Positions 12,729-31,651 of a stretch of DNA of 41,025 nt are shown in pieces; within the stretch, counting starts at the first letter, position 1, and each line of letters opens with the position of its first letter. Position numbers and translations under genes: made by a program. This stretch comes from Candidatus Zhuqueibacterota bacterium (GTDB lineage: Bacteria > Zhuqueibacterota > Zhuqueibacteria > Residuimicrobiales > Krinioviventaceae). The stretch spans positions 1-41,025 of the forward strand of contig JAFGJB010000239.1 of NCBI GenBank assembly GCA_016929295.1, read 5' to 3'. Under the pieces are notes generated by a model. That model saw only the letters and a program-made list of their open reading frames with translations. It was not told the DNA's origin and made no database searches.

Positions 12729-13810
12729 GGATTCTTTTCTTGTCCCAAACGACCGCTGTCGGCGCTGCGAGTCGTATGCGCATTTATGCTTATCTCTCTC
12801 AGTTAAAAAACGACAGCATCACCTACGATCTCGTCCCAGGGACGACCGAGTCACAAGATAGCGCTTTTTTGCAGTCACCGACGTTGTGGATCAAAATCGG
12901 CTGGTTTTTGAGCAAGGTCATGCATCGATTATTATGCCTCACTCGCATTCGTTCCTATGATTGCGTTGTCCTGCAGCGCGAGACTCTCCCTTACTTTTTT
13001 CCTTTTACAGAGATTTTGTTGAGCAAATTTGCGCGCAAACTTGTGTTTGATTTTGACGATGCGATCTTTGTATATCCGAAAAGAAAGACGTTTTTAAAAA
13101 AATTAGTGATGGATGAGAAAAATGTTATTCGAATTTTACGGCGCTGTGACCGCGTCATCGTGAGTACAAATTATCTTCGGGATTTTTGTGTGAGTTACAA
13201 CAATGATGTCCGAGTCATACCCACCTGCGTCACGTTAAGCGAGTTTAGGGAAATGAAGAAGGCGAAAAATGATGGAAAACTTGTCATTGGCTGGATTGGC
13301 AGCTACTCCACTCGCGGATATCTCTCTCTTGTTGCGAGCGTGTTGCGGAAACTGGCACTCAAATATGATTTTCAGTTCATCATCATTGGCGCCGGCGATA
13401 TCAAGTTTGACGGCATCGACGTGTCATGTAAAAAATGGCAGAAAGAATCAGAAGTAGAGGATCTCTTGAGTTTTGATATCGGCATCATGCCGTTACCTGA
13501 CAATAAATGGACGCGTGGCAAAGCCGGTTATAAATTGATCCAGTATATGGCAGTTGGTGTTCCGGCCATAGCATCCGCTGTTGGTGTGAATGTTGAAATC
13601 ATACAGGACGGCGTCAGCGGTTTTCTCGCATCCACCGATCAGGAATGGCTGAGCAAGCTGGAGCTTCTTTTAACCGACAGTAGCCTGCGGCAGCGGTTCG
13701 CGAAACAGGGTCGATACATTGTCGAACAGTGCTACTCCACGGAAGGCAACCTGAATACATGGGTGAAAGCGGTGTCTCAATTTGATGGTCATAAGCCATG
13801 CCGCGAATGA
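12725..13810 (+). CDS. GT-B glycosyltransferase, divergent GT4-like
   Basis: A 361-residue protein. The N-terminal region (MRILFLSQTTAVGAASRMRIYAYL, YDCVVLQRETLPYF, LVFDFDDAIF) and the C-terminal part (KLVIGWIGSYSTRGYL, FQFIIIGAG, IGIMPLPDNKWTRGKAGYKLIQYMAVGVPAIASAVG) match a GT4-like group in which the usual EX7E donor motif is replaced by RGKxGYKLIQY. The second glutamate is Gln and the first is not evident, so either this subgroup binds its donor differently or it has reduced activity. The family is recognised only at superfamily level. It is the fourth gene in a chain joined by ATGA overlaps, so it is most likely a working part of the same assembly line. Confidence 0.75.
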   Translation: MRILFLSQTTAVGAASRMRIYAYLSQLKNDSITYDLVPGTTESQDSAFLQSPTLWIKIGWFLSKVMHRLLCLTRIRSYDCVVLQRETLPYFFPFTEILLSKFARKLVFDFDDAIFVYPKRKTFLKKLVMDEKNVIRILRRCDRVIVSTNYLRDFCVSYNNDVRVIPTCVTLSEFREMKKAKNDGKLVIGWIGSYSTRGYLSLVASVLRKLALKYDFQFIIIGAGDIKFDGIDVSCKKWQKESEVEDLLSFDIGIMPLPDNKWTRGKAGYKLIQYMAVGVPAIASAVGVNVEIIQDGVSGFLASTDQEWLSKLELLLTDSSLRQRFAKQGRYIVEQCYSTEGNLNTWVKAVSQFDGHKPCRE

Positions 13811-14916
13811 AGATTTTGCAGCTCACGAACGTAAGTGACATCGGTGGCGCCGAAAAAATGGTTTTGAATCTGGTCACACACATCAATCGCGACAAATTTG
13901 ATGTTTCAGTGGCCAGTCTGGATGGACGTGGCAACCTGGCGCATAAAGTTCGTTCTCAAGGTCTATTTCATATTGACCTGCAAGTTCGACATCCATTTCG
14001 GTTTCTACGAAAAGCGCCTCTGTTTTTGCGCGAGAATAGATTTGATTTCATTCAGACGCATGGGGCTCGCGCCGAGTTCTTGGGCGCCTGGCTTGGAAAA
14101 TTGGCCGGCATCCGTCATGTGATATCCACGATTCACGATGTCTATGGGATGGAACATCGCTTAAAAGTCGTGCTGACTCGAGTGACAACTCGCAGAATAG
14201 ATCGCTGGGTGGCAGTGACGCCGATGATCAAAGAAATGGCGATCAAAAAATTTCATGTACCTGCGAAAAGTATAGAACTCATTGAAAGTGGCATTTCATT
14301 TAATGACAGCGAGCTCGCAGATGTTGAGGATATCAGGAAAAAATATCAGATTCCACAAGATGTCACTATCATCTTATCTGTCGCAAATCTACGGCCGGTC
14401 AAGGGGCACCAGCATATTTTACGCGCGATAACGCTGTTTGATGTGGAGATCCGACGTAAAGTAAAATTTATGTTTGTCGGTGTCGATCAATCCCATGGAA
14501 TCTATCAAAAAATGGCACGCGACTTGGGCGTCGCCGAGCAGGTGATTTTTGTTGGCTTTGTCGATGATGTAAAACCCTATCTCGCTGCCGCGAACATTTT
14601 TCTCCTTGCCTCTGAATCTGAAGGTCTGCCCCTATCATTGTTGGAAGCGATGGCCGCGCGATTGCCCGTCGTTGCTTCACGCGTGGGTGGAATACCGTTT
14701 GCAGTTCGGCATAACGATTCCGGCGTGTTGATTCCACCTGGCTCAGCAGAATCCATACATCAGACAATTTTACAGTTAATAGGCAACCAGCAACAATGTG
14801 AAGCGATGGCACTGAACGCGCAACAAATAGTACGTAGCAGGTTTTCGACGGAGAAAATGGTAAAATACTATGAAGCGCTCTACGAATCAATTTACAATAA
14901 TCTCCATCACCCGTAA
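13807..14916 (+). CDS. Glycosyltransferase family 4
   Basis: A 369-residue GT-B enzyme. MKILQLTNVSDIGGAEKMVLNLV gives the glycine-rich N-terminal loop with the GGAE motif of GT4 enzymes; FIQTHGARAEFLGAWLGKLAG and ISTIHD follow near residues 80-115. The C-terminal domain has LSVANLRPVKGHQHILRAI and the EX7E motif EGLPLSLLE with AMAARLPVVASRVGGIP. Its sugar donor is unknown. ATG 13807 makes a 4-base ATGA overlap with the preceding stop, like its neighbours; ATG 13798 is an in-frame alternative adding three residues. A perfect 11-bp hairpin begins five bases after the stop, probably marking the end of the coupled group. Confidence 0.87.
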   Translation: MKILQLTNVSDIGGAEKMVLNLVTHINRDKFDVSVASLDGRGNLAHKVRSQGLFHIDLQVRHPFRFLRKAPLFLRENRFDFIQTHGARAEFLGAWLGKLAGIRHVISTIHDVYGMEHRLKVVLTRVTTRRIDRWVAVTPMIKEMAIKKFHVPAKSIELIESGISFNDSELADVEDIRKKYQIPQDVTIILSVANLRPVKGHQHILRAITLFDVEIRRKVKFMFVGVDQSHGIYQKMARDLGVAEQVIFVGFVDDVKPYLAAANIFLLASESEGLPLSLLEAMAARLPVVASRVGGIPFAVRHNDSGVLIPPGSAESIHQTILQLIGNQQQCEAMALNAQQIVRSRFSTEKMVKYYEALYESIYNNLHHP

Positions 14917-14920
14917 CGTG

Positions 14921-14956
14921 TCAATTGCAGTAAGGCAAAAAATTGACTGCAATTGA
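14921..14956 (+). terminator. Hairpin after the coupled glycosyltransferase genes
   Basis: TCAATTGCAGT at 14921-14931 and its exact complement ACTGCAATTGA at 14946-14956 form an 11-bp stem with a 14-base loop, five bases after the stop of the last GT4. The following bases (TTTCATTG) are only weakly T-rich, so it may be a weak terminator or an RNA-stabilising structure. Confidence 0.45.
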
Positions 14957-15011
14957 TTTCATTGCAAGACCAAAAAAGGACATGCAGGATATCATTCCGG
15001 CAGTAAATTGA

Positions 15012-16016
15012 ATGAACACTATATTGGCACATGAAGACGCTGTCATCAGGATTACAGAGATCAATTCTGTATCAAGGCGTATTGAGGTTGAGATCAATGA
15101 GCCGTCAGTTTTCTCACCGCGAAAACGATGGATAACGCGATATCCAATAGAGCTCATTGAGGCGGTGCTGAAGGTCAAGGGTCCGGCCTACCTCTGCGAC
15201 GAGATTGCGCGTGATGAAGATCCAAGCTATGTGGAGAGCGATATATTTGCCTCTCTCTTCGGATATGTTTCGAAGAATGATATGGATGGTAAACGACTCC
15301 TCGATTTTGGCTGCGGCTCCGGTGCATCAACCATGATAATCAGTCGTGAGTTGCCGAACTGCCGCATCTATGCTGTCGAATTGGAAGAAAAATCACTTGC
15401 TCTGGCGCAGCTTCGCGCGGCATACTACCATTTCGAAAACCTCATGATGCTTCGCTCACCGGCGCCCGACCGGCTGCCGGAGCAAATCCAGCAAGTTGAT
15501 TATATTCTACTTTCAGCAGTCTATGAACACTTGCTTCCTGATGAAAGGCAGAGCCTACTTCTGCAGATGTGGCAGCATTTGGCTCCAGAAGGTATACTGT
15601 TCATCAATCAGACGCCGGACCGTCGCTTCCCAATAGAGACACACACGACAGGCCTGCCATTCATTAATTATCTGCCCAACTTTGTCGCCGGTCCATTTGC
15701 CCGCATCTTTTCAAAAAGAGGTTTGCGCGGCGCTTCTTGGGAATCTCTGTTGCGGAAGGGTATTCGTGGGGCTACACCGACTGAGATAATGCGATTACTT
15801 TCTGCCTCACCTTATCCGCCCATCCTTCTCACACCTGCCTCACAAGGCATCAGGCGGCAAAGTGACATATGGTATAGTTCTGCTCGAAAACGGATGTGCG
15901 AACGCTATACTGGTCTGCAAAAGCAAGTTGTTCTCACGTTGATGTCATGTATCACTTTATGTGGCGTGCCTGTCGCGCCCTACATTTCTTTAGCGATTGG
16001 AAAAAGTAGTGACTAG
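15012..16016 (+). CDS. Class I SAM-dependent methyltransferase
   Basis: A 334-residue protein with the SAM-binding motif RLLDFGCGSGAS (about residues 95-106), an acidic end of strand 2 in RIYAVELEEKSL, and VDYILLSAVYEHLLPDERQSLLLQMWQHLAPEGILFINQTPDR (post-I to motif III). The 90-residue N-terminal part and the C-terminal tail are not recognised. The family methylates small molecules or glycans; in this place a sugar or lipid-linked intermediate is a reasonable guess only. It starts 95 bases after the last GT4, beyond a hairpin, so it may be transcribed separately. The ribosome binding site before ATG 15012 is weak. It faces the minus-strand glycosyltransferase across a 139-base convergent spacer with no clear terminator. 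Confidence 0.8.
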   Translation: MNTILAHEDAVIRITEINSVSRRIEVEINEPSVFSPRKRWITRYPIELIEAVLKVKGPAYLCDEIARDEDPSYVESDIFASLFGYVSKNDMDGKRLLDFGCGSGASTMIISRELPNCRIYAVELEEKSLALAQLRAAYYHFENLMMLRSPAPDRLPEQIQQVDYILLSAVYEHLLPDERQSLLLQMWQHLAPEGILFINQTPDRRFPIETHTTGLPFINYLPNFVAGPFARIFSKRGLRGASWESLLRKGIRGATPTEIMRLLSASPYPPILLTPASQGIRRQSDIWYSSARKRMCERYTGLQKQVVLTLMSCITLCGVPVAPYISLAIGKSSD

Positions 16017-16155
16017 CTTGTCAATCAAGTGCCGTTCTACTGGCTCATATCAATGAAAATCTGTTTTCGAATCAGGGAGCATAAAAGGATGAGGTGATCT
16101 TGGCACAATGCTCTGCGATTGTCGATGCATTATATCATCCGACAAAAAGTGGTTT

Positions 16156-17244
16156 TTATACTATATTTTTTACCATAAAATTTAATCTTTGCTGTTCTTT
16201 TGCATAAATATCAATTTTATCAACCTTGCTCCTTGGGACTTTTTTGCCTTTCCATTTCTGAACAAATTGTTCTATCAAGCTGATGCTATTGACTACATTG
16301 TTTTCCGAATTTTCCAGCTCGAGTATAAATGGTGCGCCATCCATGAAATCGGTATCACGGTAGCCAATGATAATTGGGAGCCCATAAGCCAGGTATTCCC
16401 TCACTTTCAATGTGCACGCCTCATTCATTTCTTTACGATGTAGTGCGAGTGAGCCGATGCCGATATCTGCTTTGCACATGATATGCGAATAATCATCTTT
16501 CTTTAGGAATCCTGTAAAGCTAACATTTGGCAGGATTTTTTCATGTGATTTTTCTGTGCCAATGATGTAAAATAGCCAATCTTTAAATATTTCTGCCATC
16601 TGCAATATTTTATCCACTCCATGCCAGTTTTGTCCTTCGGATCCGATGAATAGCAAAATTGGTTCTTTATGAACGAATTCATGCGTAACCATGGGATAAC
16701 TCTTCAAAGATATTCCATTTGCTAGAACGAGTCTGGGGGCCTTCAATTGAACAAAATTGGGGTGGCCAGATAGCTCATGCGTGACAAAAATTAATCCTGC
16801 TGCATGATTAAAAATCAACTTCCGCGTCTGCTTCAGGATGACATATTTGAACCACGACCGTTTTCTTATCTCAATAAGATCATTTCCGTTTATCTCGACA
16901 AAAATCTTTATTCTCCTAGATAGCTTTAGGAAACCAGGCAAAAAATGTTGGTATCTAAAATATACAAACGACGGATTGAGATCAATGATCCTTTTTATCA
17001 TGTTACGAAAACTCGCCAACTTTTCGCCAAAGTTTGCAAATGAAAATCTGTGTACCTTGATGTCAGTTCCTAATTTTTGTGATAGATCCCTTGCAAGGCC
17101 TGGATTTTTTGTGAGAAGAAATATATGCACGTCGATTTGCTGTGATTTCCAGGTGAGAATTATGCTGATCACTTTTTTAATGACACCGCTTTCAACAGAG
17201 TCGTTCCAATACAATATGTAGGCAATATTTTTTATTCGTTCCAT
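16156..17244 (-). CDS. Glycosyltransferase family 4-like (minus strand)
   Basis: A 362-residue GT-B protein. The N-terminal domain starts MERIKNIAYILYWND with FVYFRYQHFLPGFL and IFVEINGNDL near residues 90-125; the C-terminal domain has ILLFIGSEGQNWHGVDKIL, FYIIGTE and an EX7E motif EACTLKVRE followed by YLAYGLPIIIGY. It is therefore a GT4-type enzyme, donor unknown. It starts 13 bases after the stop of the minus-strand flippase, forming a two-gene unit. The coding DNA is visibly richer in A+T, with many Ile, Lys, Phe and Asn codons ending in A or T, than the WecA, C25 or Wzi genes, which suggests separate acquisition. Confidence 0.8.
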   Translation of the reverse strand: MERIKNIAYILYWNDSVESGVIKKVISIILTWKSQQIDVHIFLLTKNPGLARDLSQKLGTDIKVHRFSFANFGEKLASFRNMIKRIIDLNPSFVYFRYQHFLPGFLKLSRRIKIFVEINGNDLIEIRKRSWFKYVILKQTRKLIFNHAAGLIFVTHELSGHPNFVQLKAPRLVLANGISLKSYPMVTHEFVHKEPILLFIGSEGQNWHGVDKILQMAEIFKDWLFYIIGTEKSHEKILPNVSFTGFLKKDDYSHIMCKADIGIGSLALHRKEMNEACTLKVREYLAYGLPIIIGYRDTDFMDGAPFILELENSENNVVNSISLIEQFVQKWKGKKVPRSKVDKIDIYAKEQQRLNFMVKNIV

Positions 17245-17257
17245 GACACAGTGAAGC

Positions 17258-18544
17258 TTAGCTCTTATTGAGAAAGTAAATATTTGTTAAATATAGCAAT
17301 ATGTACATCAAGGACAACGAAACAGCGAAAATTTTTATTGTCGCAAAAAAAGAGATACCTAATGACGCTGGAATTATTAACGAACCGAGCATTATTAAAA
17401 GCCGCAAGACATCCCATGCGAGCTGAATTTCTTGTCTATTCAGTAAGGTTAAATTGGTTGAGAGCGGAACAGCAATAAATTGGAAGAAAAATAAAGCAGT
17501 TAAATTTTTCACCACGAGACCAGAGGAATACCAGGAATGGCCAAAAAGTAGGGGAAAAATCATCTCGGCGGTGAGAAAAAGGGCTGCGAAAATTGCAAGA
17601 CTTGTGACCAACAAATATCTTGCAGCTTTCGTGAACAGGATTTTCACTTGCGCGGGATTTTCCGCGTATATTTTCGCCGTACTCAGATATACTTGTGAGA
17701 CAGCTTGCCCTAATATTGTAACCGGCATACCGACAACCATGATGGCCAGAGAATAGTAGCCAAGTTTTTCTGCTCCGAAAAATTTTGCGATGATGAAAAA
17801 TGGCAAATAATTGCCCAAATTATTTGCTAATGCAGCCCAACTCGAAAAGAGAGGGAATTTTCGATATTTCTTCATTGTGCAAATGAGGCTTTTTGCTTCG
17901 ATTTTTTGAGTTATACCGTCATTCTTGAAAAAGCTGAATATCAAAATAAACGCACCTGCTATCTGCTTTGCCAATGCCCCGACGAGCAATCCAATTGATT
18001 GAAAATGAAGTATGCCGAGCATGACTTGGATAACGCCGCCACTCGCACTTTGCAGAATTCGGCTATTGGATACGATGCCGAACCGCTTTTTACGTATACA
18101 CCAATATAAGAGAGCATTGAATACACCTGAAAATAGCAAACCCACAACAACAAATAGTGCGTAACTGGATATGGAAGAAAGGCCTATTTTGTCAAGCCCT
18201 TTCGGTGCGGACCATAATACCATTCCAACTACAAAAACTGAGACAAAGACCATCAGGATGGAGATTATAAGCAGATTTAAAGCACGATTTTCTGTATCGG
18301 CCATGGGGATTGCCAATTCATATCTGAACGCCGAAACCAGGGTTAAAATTATAATCAAGGAATTTAATAAACTTAATAATCCAATATCAGCGGGTGCATA
18401 CAGCCGGGTCAGAAGAGGTGCAATGAGACTATTTATCAGTTGGGATATCAATGTGCCGCTTGCTAAAACACGCACACTTTTTGCGAATTGACTCTTACGA
18501 AAATATGAAAAAAGTCTCGGGATTGCTTTTAGATTTGCGGTCAA
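17258..18544 (-). CDS. Second polysaccharide flippase (Wzx/MOP superfamily)
   Basis: A 428-residue hydrophobic protein with about 12 membrane spans and the opening VRVLASGTLISQLINSLIAPLLTRLYAPADIGLLSLLNSL, a clear mark of the MOP-type O-antigen/teichuronic acid exporters (RfbX, TuaB-like): L-T-R-x-Y-x-P-x-(D/E)-x-G. It presumably flips a lipid-linked glycan across the inner membrane. It is shorter than the plus-strand flippase and not obviously a recent duplicate of it. Its strand, its AT-rich codon use and its pairing with one glycosyltransferase set it apart from the main locus. It is read away from WecA, with a 384-base divergent spacer between them. Confidence 0.88.
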   Translation of the reverse strand: MTANLKAIPRLFSYFRKSQFAKSVRVLASGTLISQLINSLIAPLLTRLYAPADIGLLSLLNSLIIILTLVSAFRYELAIPMADTENRALNLLIISILMVFVSVFVVGMVLWSAPKGLDKIGLSSISSYALFVVVGLLFSGVFNALLYWCIRKKRFGIVSNSRILQSASGGVIQVMLGILHFQSIGLLVGALAKQIAGAFILIFSFFKNDGITQKIEAKSLICTMKKYRKFPLFSSWAALANNLGNYLPFFIIAKFFGAEKLGYYSLAIMVVGMPVTILGQAVSQVYLSTAKIYAENPAQVKILFTKAARYLLVTSLAIFAALFLTAEMIFPLLFGHSWYSSGLVVKNLTALFFFQFIAVPLSTNLTLLNRQEIQLAWDVLRLLIMLGSLIIPASLGISFFATIKIFAVSLSLMYILLYLTNIYFLNKS

Positions 18545-18928
18545 ATGAACTCCGGACTGCTATTTGCCCTCTTTGTTCATTTTAAAATAGCAATCTTTGT
18601 TCCCTATGCCAAGAAAATTTTGCCTTTCCAGCAAACTCATAAAAAGCTGTATAATATGAAAAAATATAACTATATTTCCTCTCAAGAAAACGCCCACACG
18701 GGGACGATCCAGTGGCATCTGATTGTTTTCCAATAGGTTGAGTCTCGTATCATCTCATGCAATCTGTTCCTTTGTGAGACTTTATATCCGCGTCGTACAT
18801 ATTTTCACGGCGCAGCGCGCGCGCGACAGGGCGATTTGAGAGTTGGTATAATATTTGTACATCTATCCAAAATTAAACGGAACTGGCAAGAGGAATAGCA
18901 CCATAACGCTCAACAGGTAAAACGGCGA
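18545..18928. other. Divergent intergenic region between flippase and WecA
   Basis: The 384 bases between two divergently read genes hold no convincing gene; a 63-codon plus-strand frame at its start has no recognisable features. AT-rich at the flippase side, it should carry promoters for both directions. The best plus-strand promoter candidate is listed separately. A GC-rich run of alternating CG dinucleotides lies at about 18812-18824. Confidence 0.5.
18823..18852 (+). promoter_or_regulatory. Candidate sigma70-type promoter for the WecA gene
   Basis: TATAAT at 18847-18852 is a perfect -10 hexamer. GCGACA at 18823-18828, 18 bases upstream, matches four of six -35 positions. It lies about 75 bases ahead of the WecA start. 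Confidence 0.4.
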
Positions 18929-19903
18929 ATGATCAACTATTTCCTATACTTTTTCATCCCTCTATTGATATCCCTACTGGCGACGCCGCTGTTCAAACGC
19001 TTTGCCATCAACCATCACGTCGTCGCGCGGCAGAACCATCGCACCGTGCACGCGGGGCAAATCCCGAAACTGGGCGGTGGCGCTATCTTTCTGGCGTTCA
19101 TCGCCGGCGTGCTGCTTTTTCTTTTCACCAAACCGGAGCTCGCTTTAGCGCACGGCAAAATGGTCGGCGCCCTCGTCCTTGGCGCGACCATCCTGTTCGT
19201 CCTCGGCGCCCTGGACGACAAGGCGGACCTCAACTGTAATCTCAAGCTGGTCACCGAGATCATCGTCGCTTCCCTGGCCGCTCTGGCCGGCTGGCGCATC
19301 GACGCCCTGCTGCTGCCGGCAGCGCAGGAGCTGTCTCTCGGCCTGCTGTCCTATCCGGTCTCGGTCCTGTGGATAGTCGGCGTCGCCAATTCGTTCAACA
19401 TGATCGACGGCCTCGATGGCCTGGCCGCCGGCGTGGCCACAACCGTTCTGCTCTCTTCGCTGGCGATCTCCGCGCTGTTCGGCAACGTGCTCTTGCCCAT
19501 CCTGTCGATCATCCTGGCGGGCGCAGTCCTCGGCTTTTTGCGCTACAACGTCAATCCGGCCTCCATCTTTATGGGAGATTCGGGCAGTCTGCCGCTGGGA
19601 TTTGTCCTGGCCTGCCTGACCCTGAACGCCGCCACCTATGACGCCGGCAAAGCCGTGTTCCTCATCCCGCTGCTGCTGCTGGGTCTGCCGCTGACCGACA
19701 CCTCACTCGCTATCCTGCGCCGCGTGCGCAAAGGCATTCATCCCTTCCACGCTGACCGCGAACATGTGCATCACCGACTGGTGGCGCTCGGCCTGTCGCA
19801 GTCCGGCGCCGCGCTGGCGCTCGTCGGCCTCACCGCCATCCTCGGCATCATGGCCTACCTCGTCGCCCACGGCATCCAAATGGATATGAAATTGCTAAAT
19901 TAG
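18929..19903 (+). CDS. wecA: WecA-type undecaprenyl-phosphate sugar-1-phosphate transferase
   Basis: A 324-residue polytopic protein of the MraY/WecA family, which joins a HexNAc-1-phosphate from a UDP-sugar to undecaprenyl phosphate and so starts glycan assembly on the cytoplasmic face. The family motifs are present in order: HxGQIPKLGG (HAGQIPKLGGGAIF), GALDDKADL with Asp96/Asp97 for Mg2+ binding, NSFNMIDGLDGLAAG with Asp160, IFMGDSGSLPLG, and the C-terminal HADREHVHHRL with His279, His281 and His282. The HxxHHR form is typical of WecA/TagO/WbpL rather than MraY. About 10-11 spans are visible and the length is normal. DNA here is GC-rich, unlike the preceding minus-strand pair. It is the only initiating transferase in the window and probably serves the upstream polysaccharide genes. 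Confidence 0.93.
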   Translation: MINYFLYFFIPLLISLLATPLFKRFAINHHVVARQNHRTVHAGQIPKLGGGAIFLAFIAGVLLFLFTKPELALAHGKMVGALVLGATILFVLGALDDKADLNCNLKLVTEIIVASLAALAGWRIDALLLPAAQELSLGLLSYPVSVLWIVGVANSFNMIDGLDGLAAGVATTVLLSSLAISALFGNVLLPILSIILAGAVLGFLRYNVNPASIFMGDSGSLPLGFVLACLTLNAATYDAGKAVFLIPLLLLGLPLTDTSLAILRRVRKGIHPFHADREHVHHRLVALGLSQSGAALALVGLTAILGIMAYLVAHGIQMDMKLLN

Positions 19904-20312: not shown

Positions 20313-23300
20313 ATGAAAAAGCTCTTCTGCCTGTGGGCAGTTTTTTATTTCTCAACCATCCTCTCCGCCGCAAGCCCTTATTTTCAGATCCTCGAAAAAT
20401 CGGAAAATCGGCTGGTTGTGGAATGGAGCGGACCCGAGCTGGGGTGGCGTACGGTTCAAGTCGGTGCGCGAACCTGTGAACTGCCACAGCTCGGTTCCCT
20501 GCCCCTGACGAGCACTCCCGGCTTTCCGCAGCTGCCGCTCGATGCCATCACCTTCGAGAATGGCGGCCAGACTCTTGCGGTGACGGTCCTCGATTCGGTG
20601 TATGAGCATTTGTCAGCCGGACGCATCTGCCCGGCGGCGACAATGCTCATCGATGCTGAAAAAACTGCCACGCATTACCGTGAAGACGCGCTCTTCGAAC
20701 AGGACCGATTCTATCCTTCACGTTTTCTTGTTTCCGACCAGGCGCTGTTTCGCGGGCGGCCGTTCGTCAGACTGCAGGTCAATCCAATCAAATACAATCC
20801 GGTGAGCGGCGAGATTCGCCTGCTGCGCTATCTCAAAATCGAGGTGACGACCGCCGGACGATCGTTCAAGTCCTTTTTCAGCTCGCCTCTTGACAGAGAG
20901 CTCGACAAACAGATCCTGCGGTTGGGACGCAGCGAGGTCATGACGGATCTGCGTAAGCCGATCAGCAGCGAGTCGCCGCCGCGCGTTAAAATCTCTCTGG
21001 TCGATGAGGGCGTCTATAAAGTGACAGCCGCAGCGCTCGATGCGCTGGGCGTCAGCCTCGGGGAAATCGTGCCGCAGCACATCAAGGTTTTTCAACAAGA
21101 TCAGCAGATCGCCTGCCAGGTCACCGGCGCCGAGGATGGCGTCTTTAACAGCGGCGACGAGGTTCGCTTTTTTGCCTGGCGGCTGGCCGGCGAAAACGAC
21201 TATTACTTTGCCCACACCGACACCAACGTATACTGGCTGCAATGGGATGCCGGCGCTGGTCTGCGCTATCGGTCGGTCGAGAGCGACGAGCCCGGCGAAT
21301 TTCGCTATTCCTTGCCGGCTGTGCGCCATTTTGAGCAGGACCGCGAATATTATCAGGGCGATTCGAACAGCGATATTCAGAACAGCCACGTCGTGCCCGG
21401 TGAAGGCTGGGTGTGGGATAAAGCCATCGATCCGGGTGAAAAATTTCGCACCACCTTTGATCTGCCCGGCTATGTGGTGTCGCAGGAGACGGCGACATTC
21501 ACCATGCGTCTTCGCGGCCAGACCCTCGATGCGCAACCCGATGCGCATCATCTGCGCCTCTTCATCAATGGCAGCTTGCAGCTCGAGACGTTTTTTGATG
21601 ATCGACAAGAGCTAAAGCCGACGCTGAATATTGACGGCGCCATTTTACGAGAATCAGCGAACGTCCTCGAGATTGAATCCGTTTCGCAGGGCGATCGCCT
21701 GTCGCGGTTTTATTTTGACTGGTTCAGGGTGAATTATGAGAAGAACCTGACGGCTGCCTCGGGATACGCCTTTGCCGGCTCTGCCGGCGCTGTTGACGGT
21801 GGTCTGTGGGTGAACGGCTTTTCGTCACCGGATGTGTCGATATGGGATATCCGCAATTCCCTGTCCATACAGCCGCACAGCAGCGGCACCAGCTGGGTTG
21901 CTGATTGCATCGTGCAGTCAGCCGGATTGACGGCCGGTAATTTTTCGCGATTTTATGTCAACAATAGATCTGTCTATGAGGGGACGCGCGGCCTGTCCGT
22001 CGTCGTCCTGCACCCTGCGGATGGCCGGGTGTTGTTGAGAAAGAGCTTTGACACCTACGGCTCGCCCGCACACTCTGACAGCCTGGTGACAGTGCTCGAA
22101 GGCCTGGCGGATGACACTATCATCATGGCCGGCATTCGCGATGATGGCGCCAACAATCTGACGCCGGCAGCGCGCGCGGCGTTGGGTCGTTTTGGCAGCA
22201 AGACCGTTGCGGCGTTGCAGTATCGCGATTCATGGGCGTTCATCGGCCGCAAGGGCGCTGTCGAACCGCTGGCGGAGGAGCATAAATCAGCCGTCGAAGG
22301 GAGCGCCGAGGCAGAGACGCTGCTGACATTTGCGAGCGGCGATTCGACGATTAATGTGCAATTCGCGCCGTCGACGGACGGCGAATTCGTCCTGTACGAG
22401 TCAGCGGCTTTAAAATCACCGGCGAAAATGCAATGGCGACAGCACAATCCGCTCGCGGCGATCACGGCGGCGGACTATGTCATCTTGTCGCATGAAAAGT
22501 TCCTCGAGCAGGCGCAGCGTCTGGCTGATTATCGCCGCAGCTTTAATAATTACACCACGGCCGTCATCACTGTTGAGGACATCTATGACTATGCGAACCA
22601 CGGCATCGCCGATCCCGCTGCTGTGCAGCAATTCCTGAAAAATGCCTATCTGAACTGGCGTCCCGCGCCATCCTATGTGCTGCTCTTTGGCGACGCCAGC
22701 TGGGATGAGAAGGGAAAACTGTCGAGCGAGTTTTCAAACTATGTGCCGTCGCTGGGAAATCCGGTCAGTGACGCCCTGCTCGTCTGTTTTGATGGCGACG
22801 ATGATTTTCTCCCCGATCTCAGCATCGGCAGAATCCCGGTGAAAACTCGCGCCGAAGCGCAGGCCGCAGTTGACAAGATCATCGAATACGAGAATATGCC
22901 GTCCGCTCGCTGGAAAAAAAGATTTCTCTTCATCAGCGGCGGCCTGGACGAGACCGAGCAGAGGCTGTTTCGTCAGCAATCGATGAAACTGGCCGACGAT
23001 TTTATCAGGACAACCCCGACTTTTGGCGACGCCATCTTTATCAGCAAAGGTACGAATGAGGCGGCAGCCGATGAGCGCTCTCTCATCCTAGACGCCATCA
23101 ATACCGGCACGCTGTGGACGAATTTCATCGGCCATGCGGCCAGCCGGACGTGGGAATTGATGTTCAATAATCCTGATATCGAGGAGCTCGCCAACAAAGG
23201 CCGCTATCCGTTCATTTCCAGCATGACTTGTCATACCGGTCGTTTTGGCGAGCCGACGCAGGACAGTTTTGGCGAAGCGTTTCTGCTGGCGCCGCAAAAG

Positions 23301-25982
23301 GGCGCCATCGGCTTTCTCGGCACCTCCGGCTGGGGTTATTCCTATGAAGACTATCTCTATCTGCGGCAGCTCTACCCGAAAGTGCTGACCGATTCGCTGC
23401 GCTGCATGGGCGACATCATCACGCTGACAAAATTTGATCTCTGGGGGCGATACGGCGGCGGCGACCACATTCAAAACCTCATCCTGCAGTACAATTTGCT
23501 AGGCGATCCCGCTCTCAGGCTCGGCTTGCCGCTCGAGCCGGATCTCGCCCTTGAATCGCAAGATATCAAGGTGAATCCGTCGGTTCCGAGCGAAGCCGAC
23601 TCGACGGCAGAAATAATAGTGCATATGCAAAACTGGGGTCTGGCGGTGCAGGATAGCATCGATCTGTTGCTCGAAATCGAGCAACAGGTGACAAAAAAGC
23701 AGCTGACGCAGCGCCTGACCGCACCGCCTGTCGTCGATTCGTTGATCTGCACCTGGCCGCTCAGGGATATGGCCGGACCAGTGGAAATCCGCGTCACACT
23801 TGATCCGGACGATAAAATAAAGGAGAGTGACGAAGGCAATAACGCCCAGACGACCCAGGTCACGGTGCTGACGAGCACCTTTGCGCAGGTGGCGCCGCCC
23901 AACAACGCTCGCATCCCGCTCGATGCGGTGGTATTGAAAATCCAGACGCCGCAGCAATATTTTGAACAGGAGGCGCGATATCTTTTTGAGATCGACACCA
24001 CCGCTGCCTTCGACAGCCCGGCTGCGCGACAGTCGCCGGCCATTCCGGTGCATCCGCTGCTGATCAAATGGCGCGTCGACGACCTAGTCGCCGAGCACAA
24101 GTATTTCTGGCGCGCTCGCCGCCAGGATCGTGAATTTGATCATGCTTTTCTGCCATCGTTCTATACCAGTCGAGAGCCCTTTTTTGGCTGGCAACAGGCG
24201 CATCAAAGCGACGCCGCCCATAACGTCACTATCAATACGGAGTGGGGGAAGGGCGCCGAGCTGGCGAGGAAAAAAATAACCATTCTCCTGCAGTCCGCCT
24301 GGACCAACTCTGTCGGCTATGCGCTCATAGAGATCGATAACCAGACGGCCATGCCGACGGGACGGGGACTCAACGTGGCCGTCCTCAATCAAAATAGCGG
24401 CGCCATCGAAAAGGCCGGCCATTTTGACACCTACGGCGATGTCAATGCCTCGGCCGAGCTGGCCCGCTTCATCGAGACGATAGCGACGGGTCGCACTGTC
24501 CTCGCGGCGGTGAGCGACGAGGGCAGCATCAACCTGACGGAAGCGGCAATTCAAGCTCTGGAGACCATTGGCAGCGCTAAAATTCGCGATCTTGGTTATA
24601 GAGATATGTGGGCGATCATTGGCAAAAAGGGCGCACCGCGCGGCAGCGTGGCCGAGGGCTGGGAGTCCGCCCGGCCGAACGGCGCCGTCGTTTTAAGGGA
24701 TACGCTCTCCATGCGACACAGCCGCGGACGCATGCTGTCCGAGCGCATCGGACCGGCCACAGCCTGGTCATCGCTGAGCTGGGATGTGACGGCCGGCGAT
24801 TCGTGCGATTTCTATCTCAATGTTTTGGGCTATCAGAAATCGTCGCGGGATACGGTTCTGCTCTCCGAACATATTCGGGGGAGCAATTTTGATCTTGCAT
24901 TTCTGAACGCCGACGACTATCCTTACATAGTGCTGGATGCTCACTTTTCCACCTCCAGTGCTTCGCAAAGCCCGCTCTTGAAGAGCTGGCGGGCGCAGTT
25001 TACGCCCGCATCGGATATCACCATCGGACGCCAGCTGGTCACGCAAAGCGCGGACACCGTGCTGGTCGGCGGCGCTGTCACTTTTTATCTCGATGTCTAT
25101 AATATTGGCCTTGCAACAGCGAAAAATGTCTCAATTGTCTTGCAACAGGTCAATCAGTCGGGCGGCATTCGTCTGGGTGAAATTGCGATCGATTCCATTG
25201 CCGTTGATCGCTATGCGCCGATCGACTTCAACTGGCAGGCGGGGAGTGTGCCCGGAGAAAAGCGGTTGGCAATTATTGCCGATCCGGACAATCAATTAGC
25301 CGAACTGTCAAAAGCCAACAACTCGGTGATCACCTCGGTCTATGTGCATGCGGATACGGTGAAACCTGACATTCGCATCACCTTTGATGACCGCGAGATT
25401 TTCGATGGCGACCTTGTCGCCTCCGAGCCACTCATCGTCGCCAGACTGATCGACAACGATCCCGAGTTACTGGCCGACACGACGCGCATCAGGGTCCATC
25501 TGGATGGCCAGATATTGTCTTTCAAAAATCAGCAGGTGCTGTCGCTGCAGGAATCGAGCGAACCGGACGTTCAGGGGGAGCTCGTCATTCGTCCCCTACT
25601 GAGTGATGGCGAACACATCCTCGACCTGCAGCTCAGCGACATGAGTCGCAACATGATCGAAAAAAAGGTGAGCTTTACCGTGGAGAGCGACCTGGCACTG
25701 CGGAATTTATTGAACTATCCGAATCCCCTGTATAAAGACACCGAGTTCTATTTTAGTCTGACTCGCCAGGCCCTGGTGCGCATCAAAATCTATACGGTCG
25801 CCGGTCGACTCATCCGCACGATTGCGCCAGGAGTGGTCGATGTGGGATACAATCGCATCTATTGGGATGGCCGAGATCAGGAGGGCGATGAGCTCGCAAA
25901 CGGCGTCTACCTCTATCATATCATTGCCGAGAACGAACGTGAATCTGTCACCGAGAGCAGTAAAGTGATCATCATGCGATGA
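20313..25982 (+). CDS. C25 gingipain-like peptidase with two ILEI/PANDER-like domains and T9SS C-terminus
   Basis: A 1889-residue exported protein. Order: Sec signal (1-20); PorU/gingipain-type N-terminal part with a propeptide-like region (about 20-500); ILEI/PANDER-like domain 1 (about 522-660; VYEGTRGLSVVVLH, FDTYGSP, YRDSWAFIGRKGA); C25 catalytic domain (about 720-1072) with IGHAASRTWELMF (His941) and SMTCHTGRFGEP (Cys973), the His/Cys dyad at gingipain-like spacing; CARDB-like domain (about 1075-1186); Fn3-like region (to about 1290); ILEI-like domain 2 (about 1322-1449; GRGLNVAVLN, FDTYGDV, GYRDMWAIIGKKGAP); a second CARDB-like domain (about 1567-1677); and a FlgD-like sorting domain (from about 1795; NLLNYPNPL, ANGVYLYHI). 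It should be secreted by a type IX system and act at or outside the cell surface as a cysteine peptidase. The canonical GHG is GHA here. PorU, the T9SS sortase, also belongs to C25, but PorU proteins lack a sorting domain, so a cargo protease is more likely. Confidence 0.9.
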   Translation: MKKLFCLWAVFYFSTILSAASPYFQILEKSENRLVVEWSGPELGWRTVQVGARTCELPQLGSLPLTSTPGFPQLPLDAITFENGGQTLAVTVLDSVYEHLSAGRICPAATMLIDAEKTATHYREDALFEQDRFYPSRFLVSDQALFRGRPFVRLQVNPIKYNPVSGEIRLLRYLKIEVTTAGRSFKSFFSSPLDRELDKQILRLGRSEVMTDLRKPISSESPPRVKISLVDEGVYKVTAAALDALGVSLGEIVPQHIKVFQQDQQIACQVTGAEDGVFNSGDEVRFFAWRLAGENDYYFAHTDTNVYWLQWDAGAGLRYRSVESDEPGEFRYSLPAVRHFEQDREYYQGDSNSDIQNSHVVPGEGWVWDKAIDPGEKFRTTFDLPGYVVSQETATFTMRLRGQTLDAQPDAHHLRLFINGSLQLETFFDDRQELKPTLNIDGAILRESANVLEIESVSQGDRLSRFYFDWFRVNYEKNLTAASGYAFAGSAGAVDGGLWVNGFSSPDVSIWDIRNSLSIQPHSSGTSWVADCIVQSAGLTAGNFSRFYVNNRSVYEGTRGLSVVVLHPADGRVLLRKSFDTYGSPAHSDSLVTVLEGLADDTIIMAGIRDDGANNLTPAARAALGRFGSKTVAALQYRDSWAFIGRKGAVEPLAEEHKSAVEGSAEAETLLTFASGDSTINVQFAPSTDGEFVLYESAALKSPAKMQWRQHNPLAAITAADYVILSHEKFLEQAQRLADYRRSFNNYTTAVITVEDIYDYANHGIADPAAVQQFLKNAYLNWRPAPSYVLLFGDASWDEKGKLSSEFSNYVPSLGNPVSDALLVCFDGDDDFLPDLSIGRIPVKTRAEAQAAVDKIIEYENMPSARWKKRFLFISGGLDETEQRLFRQQSMKLADDFIRTTPTFGDAIFISKGTNEAAADERSLILDAINTGTLWTNFIGHAASRTWELMFNNPDIEELANKGRYPFISSMTCHTGRFGEPTQDSFGEAFLLAPQKGAIGFLGTSGWGYSYEDYLYLRQLYPKVLTDSLRCMGDIITLTKFDLWGRYGGGDHIQNLILQYNLLGDPALRLGLPLEPDLALESQDIKVNPSVPSEADSTAEIIVHMQNWGLAVQDSIDLLLEIEQQVTKKQLTQRLTAPPVVDSLICTWPLRDMAGPVEIRVTLDPDDKIKESDEGNNAQTTQVTVLTSTFAQVAPPNNARIPLDAVVLKIQTPQQYFEQEARYLFEIDTTAAFDSPAARQSPAIPVHPLLIKWRVDDLVAEHKYFWRARRQDREFDHAFLPSFYTSREPFFGWQQAHQSDAAHNVTINTEWGKGAELARKKITILLQSAWTNSVGYALIEIDNQTAMPTGRGLNVAVLNQNSGAIEKAGHFDTYGDVNASAELARFIETIATGRTVLAAVSDEGSINLTEAAIQALETIGSAKIRDLGYRDMWAIIGKKGAPRGSVAEGWESARPNGAVVLRDTLSMRHSRGRMLSERIGPATAWSSLSWDVTAGDSCDFYLNVLGYQKSSRDTVLLSEHIRGSNFDLAFLNADDYPYIVLDAHFSTSSASQSPLLKSWRAQFTPASDITIGRQLVTQSADTVLVGGAVTFYLDVYNIGLATAKNVSIVLQQVNQSGGIRLGEIAIDSIAVDRYAPIDFNWQAGSVPGEKRLAIIADPDNQLAELSKANNSVITSVYVHADTVKPDIRITFDDREIFDGDLVASEPLIVARLIDNDPELLADTTRIRVHLDGQILSFKNQQVLSLQESSEPDVQGELVIRPLLSDGEHILDLQLSDMSRNMIEKKVSFTVESDLALRNLLNYPNPLYKDTEFYFSLTRQALVRIKIYTVAGRLIRTIAPGVVDVGYNRIYWDGRDQEGDELANGVYLYHIIAENERESVTESSKVIIMR

Positions 25983-26521: not shown

Positions 26522-28024
26522 ATGTCACTATCTGATTGGCTCTTTTTGGCGCTTTTCACGGCTTTGCTCTTTCTCATCGTGGTGATCGCAGAGCTGGTAC
26601 GACGCTATCTGCATTGGCATCCGGAGACGACGCGCAAAATCGTCCATATGGCGGTGGGCATCATGGTGGCGACCACCCCTTTCCTGTTGCAGTCCATGTG
26701 GCCGATGGTCATTCTCGGCGTGCTCTTTGCAATCATCGATTTTTTCGCCGTGCGCCGCGGCTTTTTGAACGGCATGCACGGCACTCGACGTCACACCTAT
26801 GGCACCGTCTTTTACCCCGTCTCCTTTGTCATTCTCACCGTCACTTTGTGGGATAATCACAAGCTCATCCTGGTCACTGCCATGCTCATCATGGCAATTT
26901 CAGACGCTGTGGCAGCGATCGTCGGCGAACGGGCGAAAAAGCCGATCCTGCTGCGCCTCGGTCCGGAGACGAAATCCGTGCAGGGTTCTGCCGCCATGCT
27001 GCTGACGACCTTTTTGATAGTTATCATCTCGTGTCAGATGGCGATGTCTCTGGGCTACTATAATTTGTCGCCGGCTCGCATCGTCTGGATCGCGGCCGTC
27101 GTCGGCATCATGGCCATGGCATCCGAGGTGATCTCAAAGCAGGGTTCGGACAATCTCACGGTGCCGCTGGGCTCCGCTTTTGCCATGTTCTATCTGCTCA
27201 CCGAATCGACGCATGATGGCCTGATCTTTTCGTTCGGCATGTGGCTGGCGCTGGTCATCGCCCTCATCTCCTACCGATTGCATTTTTTGGATGGCGGCGG
27301 CGCGGTCGCGCTGTTTTTATTAGGTACGCTCGTCTTTGGCGTCGGCCGCTGGACTTTCTCGGTGCCGATTTTGGCGTTTTTCATCCTCTCCAGCCTGCTG
27401 TCCAAGATGGGAAAAAAGCGCAAGACCACATTACAGAGCGTCTTTGAGAAGAGTGGTCGCCGCGACGCTGCACAGGTGTTGGCGAACGGCGGCGTCGCCG
27501 GAGTTTTGCTGATTTTGTGGTATTTTCTGCAGAGTGATTATTTTTATATCCTCTATGTCGCCTCGCTCGCCGCGGTCACGGCCGACACCTGGGCGACGGA
27601 GATCGGCGTCATGGCCAGAGTGCAGCCGCGCTCGGTGCTCACTTTCAAGCGCGTTCCCATGGGAACGTCCGGCGGCATTTCTTTGCTGGGAACGCTCGGT
27701 TCCGCCCTGGGCGCCTTTATCATCGTTCTCTTTGGCTTTTTGTTCAGCCCGCATTCGTCGCCGCGACTCTTCGGCTATCGCGAGGCCGGTCTGGTGCTGT
27801 TCGCCGGCGTCCTGGCCGGATTGGTGGACAGCTATCTCGGCGCCACCATTCAAGCGCAATTCCAGTGCACATTATGCGGCAAGGTGACGGAAAAAAAACA
27901 GCACTGCAATAACCGGACTACATTCTTCAGGGGCTTTATCTGGATCAACAACGATGTCGTGAATGGGCTTTGTGCGGCGAGCGCGGTGCTCATTGCCTGG
28001 ATCGCTGATCTGCTGATAACTTAG
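26522..28024 (+). CDS. Fused isoprenoid-alcohol kinase (VTE5-like) and DUF92 isoprenyl-phosphate kinase (VTE6-like)
   Basis: A 500-residue polytopic membrane protein that appears to be two enzymes in one chain. Residues 1 to about 225 resemble the phytol/dolichol kinase (VTE5/SEC59) and CdsA-like family: RKIVHMAVGIMV, GTRRHTYGTVFYPVSF and AMLIMAISDAVAAIVGERAKK. From about residue 254 the chain is DUF92/TMEM19-like: LDGGGAVALFLLG, ASLAAVTADTWATEIGVM, LTFKRVPMGTSGGISLLGTLGS and QCTLCGKVTEKKQHC. In plants, VTE5 phosphorylates phytol using CTP and VTE6, a DUF92 protein, adds the second phosphate, giving phytyl diphosphate. The fused protein could convert a free isoprenoid alcohol to its diphosphate in the inner membrane. 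The window shows no photosynthesis genes, so a farnesol, geranylgeraniol or polyprenol substrate is more plausible than endogenous phytol. ATG 26522 has only a weak ribosome binding site. Confidence 0.8.
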   Translation: MSLSDWLFLALFTALLFLIVVIAELVRRYLHWHPETTRKIVHMAVGIMVATTPFLLQSMWPMVILGVLFAIIDFFAVRRGFLNGMHGTRRHTYGTVFYPVSFVILTVTLWDNHKLILVTAMLIMAISDAVAAIVGERAKKPILLRLGPETKSVQGSAAMLLTTFLIVIISCQMAMSLGYYNLSPARIVWIAAVVGIMAMASEVISKQGSDNLTVPLGSAFAMFYLLTESTHDGLIFSFGMWLALVIALISYRLHFLDGGGAVALFLLGTLVFGVGRWTFSVPILAFFILSSLLSKMGKKRKTTLQSVFEKSGRRDAAQVLANGGVAGVLLILWYFLQSDYFYILYVASLAAVTADTWATEIGVMARVQPRSVLTFKRVPMGTSGGISLLGTLGSALGAFIIVLFGFLFSPHSSPRLFGYREAGLVLFAGVLAGLVDSYLGATIQAQFQCTLCGKVTEKKQHCNNRTTFFRGFIWINNDVVNGLCAASAVLIAWIADLLIT

Positions 28025-28128: not shown

Positions 28129-29928
28129 ATGAAGCGACGTGATTTTTTCAAGACTGCCGGAGCAGTCGCTGTTGCGGATGTTTTGCTGCATGCGAATCCC
28201 GGCGCCGAAGCAGCACCCGCAAAAGTAGCTGAGGAAAAATATGCAACTCTACAAGTGCGCGATGACAAGATTTATGCAGAGACTCATACGTTGTCGGCTG
28301 TCATCGACAAAGGCTTCATCACAACGCTGAGAAGCAAACGAAGCGGCGAGTCTTTTTTACAGCATGTTGATATCACCAAAAGTGCTGCATTGCAGCTGAT
28401 CTATAGTAAAGAAGAGGTGGTGCCAATTGATGAGAGCAAATTCGGCAATATTGTGACGACATCGCTCTCAACCACGCGCGCGGAAATTGCTTTTCACGGC
28501 TGGGATGGCGATGGCATCATGATTATTTCTGTCGATGTGGAATCAGGCGATCTGTTGATCGAGCCTTCTGCTTTTTCTTCGCGCCCGGGCGTGCGCGCCT
28601 GTCGTTGGAACTTGCGAGACTTTCGCTCTGACCTCGAACTGGTGGCGCCATTCTTCCAGGGTATCAAACTCGCGCTGAGCGATCCCCTCATTAAAAATAC
28701 ACGATGGCATTGGCCCATGTTTTGGGAGGCGGGCTTGGTCATATTGCAATCGAAGAACGGCGGCTTCTGGGTGCACACGCAGGATAATCGCTATCGCTAC
28801 AAGGCGCTGCAAGTCGGTTCGGCGACGGCAGCGACCTGTCTCGGATTCGACTCCGAAGCCTATGGCCCGATCGATGAAAACAAAAGTGCCGGCGGACTGG
28901 TATGGCGTTTGAATGTATTTGAAGGCGACTGGATCCATCCGGCGAAGCAGTATCGCCAGTGGCTGTGGCACGCCTATCGCCTGGGAGACGAGGAGCACCG
29001 TCGTCGGCCGTGGATTCATGATGTCTCGTTTGCTGTGAGTTGGTGTCCTACTGACGTCGCCATTCTGCAGGCCATCGCAAAAAAGCTTGATCCCCGCAAG
29101 GTTCTGCTGCATCTTCCCAACTGGCGTACGGATCCATACGATGAGAATTATCCGCAATACATTGCCAGCGATGCGGCCAGAGCGTTCATTCAACAAGGCC
29201 AGGATATGGGATTTCATGTGATGCCGCATTTCAATGCCGTTGATATGGATCCATCGCATCCGAGCTATGCCTTGTTACATGATTTCCAGTACCGCGACAT
29301 TGAAGACAAGACACTGGGCGGCTGGAGCTGGTACCAGGGTCGCGGTCTCGGTGTGCCGGAATCAAATGCCAGTCGATTGAAAAATCGCGATAAAAAGGTG
29401 ATGATCAAGGTGCATCCCGGTCTTGCGATGTGGCGATCCATTCTCGGGCGGGCGATCTTGAATGCGGTGCGGACGGATCATTTTGATACGGTTTTCATCG
29501 ATGTGACGCTGGTGTCGCACAACTTGCACACCTGTCTGGTGGAGGGTATGACATCGACAGAAGGTATGCGGAAATTGATCAATCATGTGGCGGAACTTGG
29601 CGAAGGCCTGGTTGTCGGTGGCGAGGGCTTGAACGAGATCACCATGCAAGGCCAATCATTTGCGCAAGCGCATCTGTTCAAGAGCTGGCAAGCGTCGATT
29701 GAGGGCCTCGAACGAACGGGCGGCTGCAATTTGAACGAACGGCTTTTCGGCAGACTCTGCCACACCATCGGTTATTCCGGACTGGGCGGCCGTACTCCGA
29801 ATGAGGAGCTGAGGATGAGAATGCAGCTGGAGCACGGCGCCATCCCAACGGTGACGATTCGTTCCGCAGCGGATATCATCGATCCTAATCCGGCTGTGAA
29901 GCGTATGCTGGAACTGGCCTCCAGTTGA
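28129..29928 (+). CDS. Tat-exported glycoside-hydrolase-like protein
   Basis: A 599-residue protein starting MKRRDFFKTAGAVAVAD, a twin-arginine (RRDFFK) signal with a hydrophobic stretch and an Ala-rich cleavage region near residue 30. The N-terminal half (about 45-290) looks beta-rich. The C-terminal half reads like a TIM barrel: VLLHLPNWRTDPYDENYP, GFHVMPHFNAVDMD, VMIKVHPGLAMWR, FDTVFIDVT, VVGGEGLNE and FGRLCHTIGYSGLGG. The Asp of VFIDVT and a Glu of GGEGLNE are candidate catalytic acids, as in alpha-galactosidase-like (clan GH-D-like or DUF6259-type) proteins. I cannot assign a CAZy family from sight. A strong ribosome binding site (GAGGAGGT) sits at ideal distance. It is followed 40 bases later by the gamma-glutamyltranspeptidase-like gene in the same direction. 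Confidence 0.6.
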   Translation: MKRRDFFKTAGAVAVADVLLHANPGAEAAPAKVAEEKYATLQVRDDKIYAETHTLSAVIDKGFITTLRSKRSGESFLQHVDITKSAALQLIYSKEEVVPIDESKFGNIVTTSLSTTRAEIAFHGWDGDGIMIISVDVESGDLLIEPSAFSSRPGVRACRWNLRDFRSDLELVAPFFQGIKLALSDPLIKNTRWHWPMFWEAGLVILQSKNGGFWVHTQDNRYRYKALQVGSATAATCLGFDSEAYGPIDENKSAGGLVWRLNVFEGDWIHPAKQYRQWLWHAYRLGDEEHRRRPWIHDVSFAVSWCPTDVAILQAIAKKLDPRKVLLHLPNWRTDPYDENYPQYIASDAARAFIQQGQDMGFHVMPHFNAVDMDPSHPSYALLHDFQYRDIEDKTLGGWSWYQGRGLGVPESNASRLKNRDKKVMIKVHPGLAMWRSILGRAILNAVRTDHFDTVFIDVTLVSHNLHTCLVEGMTSTEGMRKLINHVAELGEGLVVGGEGLNEITMQGQSFAQAHLFKSWQASIEGLERTGGCNLNERLFGRLCHTIGYSGLGGRTPNEELRMRMQLEHGAIPTVTIRSAADIIDPNPAVKRMLELASS

Positions 29929-29968: not shown

Positions 29969-31651
29969 ATGCGGATACTCATAAGAACGGTGATTCTATT
30001 CATCTGCCTCACATGCCTAGGGGCTCAAGCAATACAACGGTATCGCTCGGAAGTGATCGCCAAAAACGGCATGGCCGCCACAAGCCATCCGTTGGCGACG
30101 CAGATCGCCATCGATATCCTGAAACAGGGCGGCACCGCCGTCGATGCGGCCATCGCGGCGAATGCGGCGCTCGGCTTTATGGAGCCCATGAGCTGCGGCA
30201 TCGGCGGTGATCTGTTCGCCATGGTGTGGGACGCCCGCACAGAAAAGCTCTACGGCCTCAATGCCAGCGGCCGGTCGCCGAAATCGTTGACCCTGGATTA
30301 TTTTCGCGACAATGGCTACGAACAAATTCCGCTGCGCGGCCCGCTCTCCTTGTCCGTGCCCGGTTGCGTGGATGGCTGGTTCGAACTGCACGATAAGTTT
30401 GGCGTCCTGCCAATGGCGGCCATTTTGCAGTCGGTGATCGCCTATGCCGAGGAGGGCGCGCCGGTGCCGGAGATCATCGCCGGCCATTGGGCGAATGGCA
30501 TCAAGAACTATGGTGATCAACCGAATTTCGTCGCGACTTATGGCGTGAACGGCGCAGCGCCGGCAAAGGGAGAGCTGTTTCGCAATCCCGCACTGGCGAG
30601 GAGCTATGCGACCATCGCAACAAAGGGCCGCGATGCTTTTTATCGGGGTGACATCGCCAGGACAATAGACGCCTTTGTCAGGGAGATGGGCGGCTTTTTA
30701 TCATACGACGACCTCGCCGCGCACCGCTCCGAGTGGGTGACGCCGGTCAACACCTCGTACCGTGGCTATGATGTGTGGGAACTGCCGCCGAACGGCCAGG
30801 GGATTGCGGTGCTGCAGATGCTGAACATTTTGGAACGATTTGATCTCAGGGCCTTTGGCTTTGGCAGCGTCGATCATATCCACGCTTTCCTGGAGGCGAA
30901 AAAGCTCGTCTTTGAAGATCGCGCCCTGTTTTACGCCGACACAGATTTTTCTCACGTGCCGATTGAAAAACTCATATCAAAGGAGTATGCGGCGGAACGA
31001 TTCAAGCTTATTGATATGCGTCGCGCCGGGACAGATTATCAGGCTGGCGAGATCAGCGCGGGCGAGACGATCTATCTCTGCACTGCCGATAAAAATGGCA
31101 ACATGGTGTCGCTCATCCAGAGCAACTATTACGGATTCGGCTCAGCCCTGGCGCCCGATGGTCTCGGCTTTGTGCTGCAAAATCGCGGCGCGCTGTTCAC
31201 GCTGCAGGAGGGACACGCCAATGTCTACGAGCCGGGCAAACGGCCGTTTCACACCATCATTCCGGCATTCGTCACCCGCGAGGGTGCGCCTTATATGGCA
31301 TTCGGCGTCATGGGCGGCGATTTCCAGCCGCAGGGGCAGGTGCAGGTGTTGATCAATATGATCGATTTCGACATGGACCTGCAGGAGGCCGGCGACGCGC
31401 CGCGCGTTGCGCACGAAGGATCCAGTACACCACGGGATGAGAAGAGAGCAGTCGATGGGGGAGAGGTTGGCCTGGAAGATTATTTTGACGCGGCTGTGGT
31501 CGAGCAGCTGCGCGGCCGCGGCCATCGCGTGCAGGTGAGCAACGGCGCCATGTTTTATGGCGGCTACCAGGCGATCAGATATGACGCGGAACACGGCGTC
31601 TATATCGGCGCCACCGAGATTCGCAATGATGGACATGTGGCGGGATACTAG
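29969..31651 (+). CDS. Gamma-glutamyltranspeptidase-like enzyme, periplasmic
   Basis: A 560-residue Ntn hydrolase precursor with a Sec signal (residues 1-22, LIRTVILFICLTCLGAQA). Family marks: NGMAATSHPLATQIAIDILKQGGTAVDAAIAANAALGFMEPMSCGIGGDLFAMV at the start of the large subunit, and AGETIYLCTADKNGNMVSLIQSNYYGFGS at the processing site, where Thr367 would become the N-terminal nucleophile of the small subunit. The following TTH of classical GGT is TIY here, and the later GGDFQPQGQVQ block is typical of the YwrD-like branch. GGTs hydrolyse or transfer the gamma-glutamyl group of glutathione and similar peptides; this branch may use other acyl substrates. ATG 29969 has AAAAGGA about eight bases upstream. 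Probably co-transcribed with the preceding hydrolase-like gene. Confidence 0.88.
   Translation: MRILIRTVILFICLTCLGAQAIQRYRSEVIAKNGMAATSHPLATQIAIDILKQGGTAVDAAIAANAALGFMEPMSCGIGGDLFAMVWDARTEKLYGLNASGRSPKSLTLDYFRDNGYEQIPLRGPLSLSVPGCVDGWFELHDKFGVLPMAAILQSVIAYAEEGAPVPEIIAGHWANGIKNYGDQPNFVATYGVNGAAPAKGELFRNPALARSYATIATKGRDAFYRGDIARTIDAFVREMGGFLSYDDLAAHRSEWVTPVNTSYRGYDVWELPPNGQGIAVLQMLNILERFDLRAFGFGSVDHIHAFLEAKKLVFEDRALFYADTDFSHVPIEKLISKEYAAERFKLIDMRRAGTDYQAGEISAGETIYLCTADKNGNMVSLIQSNYYGFGSALAPDGLGFVLQNRGALFTLQEGHANVYEPGKRPFHTIIPAFVTREGAPYMAFGVMGGDFQPQGQVQVLINMIDFDMDLQEAGDAPRVAHEGSSTPRDEKRAVDGGEVGLEDYFDAAVVEQLRGRGHRVQVSNGAMFYGGYQAIRYDAEHGVYIGATEIRNDGHVAGY

Follow-up and report, generated by a model that had tools for sequence, protein, structure and literature searches.

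Can the two successive phosphorylations that turn an isoprenoid alcohol into its diphosphate reside in a single bacterial membrane protein? This question is raised by an ORF of Candidatus Zhuqueibacterota (candidate division KSB1), which starts with ATG and lies in a window (the whole stretch of DNA that was analysed) of 41,025 nucleotides. From the letters alone, it had been read as a fusion of a phytol/dolichol-kinase-like half and a DUF92 half, i.e., a one-chain equivalent of VTE5 and VTE6. The ORF is a real, conserved gene: the same fused frame is found in about 55 genomes, down to about 36% identity, and is thus neither a chance frame nor an assembly artefact. The claimed layout and domain order were both recovered, with a SEC59-type N-terminal half, a DUF92 profile match in the C-terminal half and intact motifs in both (Table 1). 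The N-terminal domain is a predicted isoprenoid-alcohol kinase and the C-terminal domain a predicted isoprenyl-phosphate kinase.

Table 1. Features of the fusion gene and of one upstream gene, in window coordinates.
Feature	Position	Strand	Remarks
SEC59-DUF92 fusion gene	26522..28024	+	500 aa, about 15 predicted membrane helices; ORF, AF2 model, conservation across the phylum
N-terminal SEC59/phytol-kinase-type domain, aa 1-228	26522..27205	+	8 helices; hhalign, CTP_transf_1 matches, motifs, helix count
R38-K-x-x-H42 charged clamp	26633..26647	+	invariant or nearly so in 46 homologues
D128-x-x-A-x-x-x-G...K151-[ST]-x-[QE]-G155, putative CTP-binding motif	26903..26986	+	invariant or nearly so in 46 homologues
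E202..S205..G208-S-D210-N211..P215	27125..27166	+	invariant or nearly so in 46 homologues
C-terminal DUF92/COG1836 (VTE6-type) domain, aa 234-500	27221..28021	+	PF01940 match; own AF2 model
D355-T-W-x-T-E-x-G362, DUF92 motif	27584..27607	+	invariant in 46 homologues
C449-x-x-C452...C462	27866..27907	+	invariant in 46 homologues
N477-D-x-V-N481	27950..27964	+	invariant in 46 homologues
PF00953 sugar-phosphate transferase, end of polysaccharide cluster	18929-19903

The C-terminal half was recognized directly, PF01940 (DUF92) being matched over residues 242-487 with an E-value of 1.1e-65 (221.9 bits for a cut-off of 27.5) and from profile position 2 to 249 of 251, which corresponds to the full-length domain. 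By this profile match, the C-terminal half is DUF92 beyond doubt, as had been proposed. The TIGR00297 equivalog was matched as well, at 114.2 bits, below its cut-off of 205.85. Among the conserved motifs of this half, the three cysteines are possibly metal-binding. No homology between the two halves was detected by hhalign (probability 1.6%, and no more than 36% when other sets were used); such homology has been published for archaea.

For the N-terminal half, the scan of this protein against Pfam and NCBIfam yielded nothing significant, because neither library contains a SEC59/dolichol-kinase model (nor PF28421). When 28 N-terminal halves and standalone paralogues were scanned singly, the most recurrent Pfam family was CTP_transf_1, matched by 11 of the 28 (best E-value 8.9e-6). 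Moreover, the N-terminal half aligns over 220 columns with the SEC59-like paralogues that occur as standalone proteins in the phylum (hhalign E-value 7e-43), and it has both the RKxxH clamp and the eight helices that characterize SEC59/COG0170 proteins such as PfPolK of Plasmodium. In the latter, an experimentally tested farnesol/geranylgeraniol (prenol) kinase, the clamp corresponds to Arg29, Lys30 and His33 (PMC10849223); PfPolK makes the monophosphate only and has no DUF92 half. With respect to the published dolichol-kinase CTP motif, DxxAxxxGxxxGx8KKTxEG (PMC5853391), the core D, A, G, K and G are kept, while the second glycine is not conserved and the glutamate is replaced by glutamine in 28 of the 46 members. 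Taken together, the paralogue alignment, the family-wide CTP_transf_1 matches and the motifs place this half, at the sequence level, as a probable SEC59/phytol-kinase-type domain. The sequence-only reading is supported as to the family, but a VTE5-type enzyme, rather than another SEC59-type lipid-alcohol kinase, is not established. An identity as CdsA was considered for the N-terminal half and rejected: within the genome of origin, CTP_transf_1 (PF01148) was scored by a separate CdsA gene only (G000:C23). A standalone SEC59-like paralogue was also observed in this genome (L053:7247-8143, G000:C270) and in about 20 relatives.

The full-length AlphaFold (AF2) model is confident over its entire length (pLDDT 91.7, pTM 0.90); its N-terminal half displays eight helices, the same as the PfPolK model, and the C-terminal half, folded separately, reaches a pLDDT of 94. 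In a Foldseek search, the top solved match of both the full model and the C-terminal half alone was the CdsA of Thermotoga maritima (4Q2G), albeit weakly (E-values 0.05-0.4, TM-scores 0.2-0.35). This agrees with a 2026 paper assigning phytol and farnesol kinases to the CdsA-type/CDP-alcohol synthase fold (PMC13397572), while DUF92 was related to the cytidylyltransferase family by HHpred in 2015 (PMC5898192). At face value, having CdsA as the nearest solved fold of both models, along with this HHpred link, might suggest that one or both halves are cytidylyltransferases, the product of DUF92 then being a prenyl or ether lipid activated with CDP, as with CdsA/CarS. We hold this to be quite improbable, as the DUF92 protein that has been characterised, VTE6 of plants, is reported to be a phytyl-phosphate kinase, and as the genome already has one good CdsA, separate from the fusion. 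In the AF2 model, the conserved positions of both halves fall at the ends of helices or in loops with many lysines and arginines; these positive loops suggest that both active sites may face the cytoplasm. PDB sequence searches returned nothing relevant, and one unnamed Yasminevirus protein was matched in a viral fold search.

A match was found in 69 of the 82 genomes of the phylum, and the complete one-frame fusion, counted by hand from the match table, in about 55 of the 82, with a few more cut by contig ends; the phylum is represented by fragmented MAGs, which bounds any claim of absence. The closest named relative is a contig of candidate division KSB1 (88% identical), and a scan of genome contigs for fusions outside the phylum returned solely a near-identical KSB1 contig. 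In each of the trees of the two half-domains, a fully supported branch sets all 46 fused sequences apart, and the two trees (unrooted) broadly agree on the inner groups. According to these phylogenies, the fusion has a single origin, and both domains would have been inherited jointly since early in the history of the phylum.

One family (f7) departs from this pattern, in that six of its eight genomes carry a DUF92 gene on its own, mostly before divIC, DUF502, a gene for a 615-aa protein and rsbW. This place is syntenic with that of the fusion elsewhere, where the block often starts with enolase, and f7 genomes have SEC59-like or CdsA-like genes that are remote and unlinked. The arrangement reads as a loss of the N-terminal half if the root of these unrooted trees lies outside the class, and it implies that the halves can part. 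It could accordingly be argued that one half only is active, the other being a scaffold or a sensor, perhaps for the eno/divIC/rsbW block, all the more so given the glutamate-to-glutamine change in the N-terminal motif. However, at the remaining motif positions of both halves the 46 members show little or no variation, and we deem such a division of roles very improbable.

Upstream of the fusion gene, the window carries a large polysaccharide cluster followed by a C25 peptidase gene and a gap of 539 bases, so that the fusion gene probably lies outside the operon of the polysaccharide genes and the peptidase. The extracellular polysaccharide cluster (4355-19903) encodes a Wzi-like protein, two flippase-like proteins and many glycosyltransferases. 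The gingipain-like C25 peptidase (20313-25982; 1889 aa) combines a propeptide, two ILEI stretches, CARDB and an FlgD-type C-terminal domain. Downstream, the window shows a DUF6259 protein and a gamma-glutamyltranspeptidase, not the eno-divIC block; the former (28129-29928; 599 aa) has a twin-arginine-like start and the latter spans 29969-31651. In relatives, the conserved block consists of eno, divIC, DUF502, a gene for an unknown 615-aa protein and rsbW, and no isoprenoid gene is among the conserved neighbours; nor are there photosynthesis genes in the window. The fourth, conserved protein of this block (615-647 aa; e.g., L033:3295-5142) has no Pfam or NCBIfam match.

Here and in several relatives, the gene is preceded by a polysaccharide cluster whose last gene encodes a PF00953 sugar-phosphate transferase. 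This brings up a polyprenol (undecaprenol-type) kinase for glycan carriers, one of the substrate options of the sequence-only reading: polyprenyl phosphate from the N-terminal half would serve WecA-type transferases, with DUF92 acting on the same long chain or as a regulator. In the same direction, no DgkA-type kinase was found in the genome of origin, and archaeal DUF92 genes neighbour uppS (PMC5898192). Yet glycan carriers are needed as monophosphates: WecA-type transferases would have no use for a half that makes diphosphates, and the work of UppP would be reversed by a second kinase. Furthermore, DgkA-type kinases are present or absent across the phylum independently of the fusion, only some families show the glycan neighbourhood, and the genome has, apart from the fusion, a standalone SEC59-like paralogue. 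This option is weakened by the monophosphate requirement and by the independence of DgkA, and we regard it as unlikely.

The genome of origin is equipped with sinks for prenyl diphosphates, in line with the proposed feeding of quinone synthesis. It encodes four UbiA-family proteins. Two of them score over cut-off: a MenA, whose gene adjoins menC and a menB-like gene (enoyl-CoA-hydratase), and a decaprenyl-phosphate phosphoribosyltransferase. A third, below cut-off, is GGGP-geranylgeranyltransferase-like, and the gene of the fourth adjoins one of the geranylgeranyl-reductase family. One UppS is also present, as is a PcrB/GGGP-synthase homologue. The latter occurs in 49 of 49 near-complete genomes of the phylum, and is therefore not discriminating; PcrB homologues can use longer chains. 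MenA, the UbiA paralogues, the PcrB/GGGP-synthase homologue and the geranylgeranyl reductase imply that prenyl diphosphates are in demand. As a side observation, the PcrB/GGGP synthase homologue, the GGGP-geranylgeranyltransferase-like UbiA and the UbiA-geranylgeranyl-reductase pair (L079, L082, L085) make up a possible archaeal-type ether-lipid set; KSB1 is not mentioned in a paper on the lipids of the FCB group (PMC7852524).

In our opinion, the protein is probably a CTP-dependent two-step prenol kinase, taking an alcohol to the monophosphate and then to the diphosphate in one chain, and feeding prenyltransferases. The architecture, its conservation, the intact motifs, the single origin and the genomic sinks were observed here and speak for this function, while the glutamate-to-glutamine change in most members and the lost second glycine of the CTP motif count against it, as do the weak Foldseek matches, a TIGR00297 score below its cut-off and conserved neighbours that include no isoprenoid gene. 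From the analogy with VTE5, FOLK, VTE6 and PfPolK, the first and third of which act with FOLK as CTP-preferring kinases on successive steps, we infer the reactions, the nucleotide, the substrate and the hand-over. Briefly, the SEC59/VTE5-type domain would bind CTP at the cytoplasmic face and phosphorylate a membrane-embedded isoprenoid alcohol; the resulting monophosphate would be handed on within the protein, and the DUF92/VTE6-type domain would add the second phosphate; and the prenyl diphosphate would go to prenyltransferases for menaquinone (MenA) and possibly for GGGP-type ether lipids. The substrate would most likely be a C15-C20 prenol (e.g., geranylgeraniol, phytol or farnesol), either scavenged or set free when the cell turns over prenyl lipids of its own. 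A broader scenario, in which the fused kinase would be ancestral to the phylum and would sustain a phylum-wide, one-protein salvage from prenol to prenyl diphosphate, by which C20 chains would be reused for menaquinone and for ether lipids of the archaeal type, strikes us as rather doubtful.

The fusion of SEC59 and DUF92 is not new in itself. Makarova et al. (2015; PMC5898192) described it in Methanosarcina barkeri (Mbar_A3310) and proposed an isoprenoid kinase step; according to the published description, this protein has the same two domains in the same order and the same predicted step, but it is archaeal, and archaeal DUF92 genes are linked to uppS. Likewise, COG1836 was tied to phytol-phosphate metabolism by a plant-prokaryote comparison in 2011 (PMC3223725). 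The argument that the fusion supports a kinase role of DUF92 outside plants is thus sound, but it had already been made for the archaeal fusion. VTE5 and VTE6 of plants and Cyanobacteria, again compared by description, belong to the same domain families and catalyse successive reactions, but they are two separate proteins of chloroplast phytol salvage, whereas KSB1 has one chain. What appears to be new is the presence of the fusion throughout KSB1, together with the lipid genes around it in the genome: in the literature searched, the fusion was not found to be reported for KSB1 or for bacteria at all. Second-kinase genes of prenol salvage have been identified in very few organisms (PMC9782597). 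One membrane protein with both steps would allow measuring both reactions, their substrate range and any channelling together, and the KSB1 fusion would put the archaeal prediction of 2015 to the test in bacteria.

Finally, plasmid records contained one half each, never both. A Roseinatronobacter plasmid (L073:4932-6251) encodes a SEC59-like hypothetical protein near a UbiA prenyltransferase, a DUF3419 protein and a PEP/pyruvate-binding protein, and the megaplasmid of Thermomicrobium roseum (L074:6001-6576) encodes a DUF92-like protein that is absent from its gene table.
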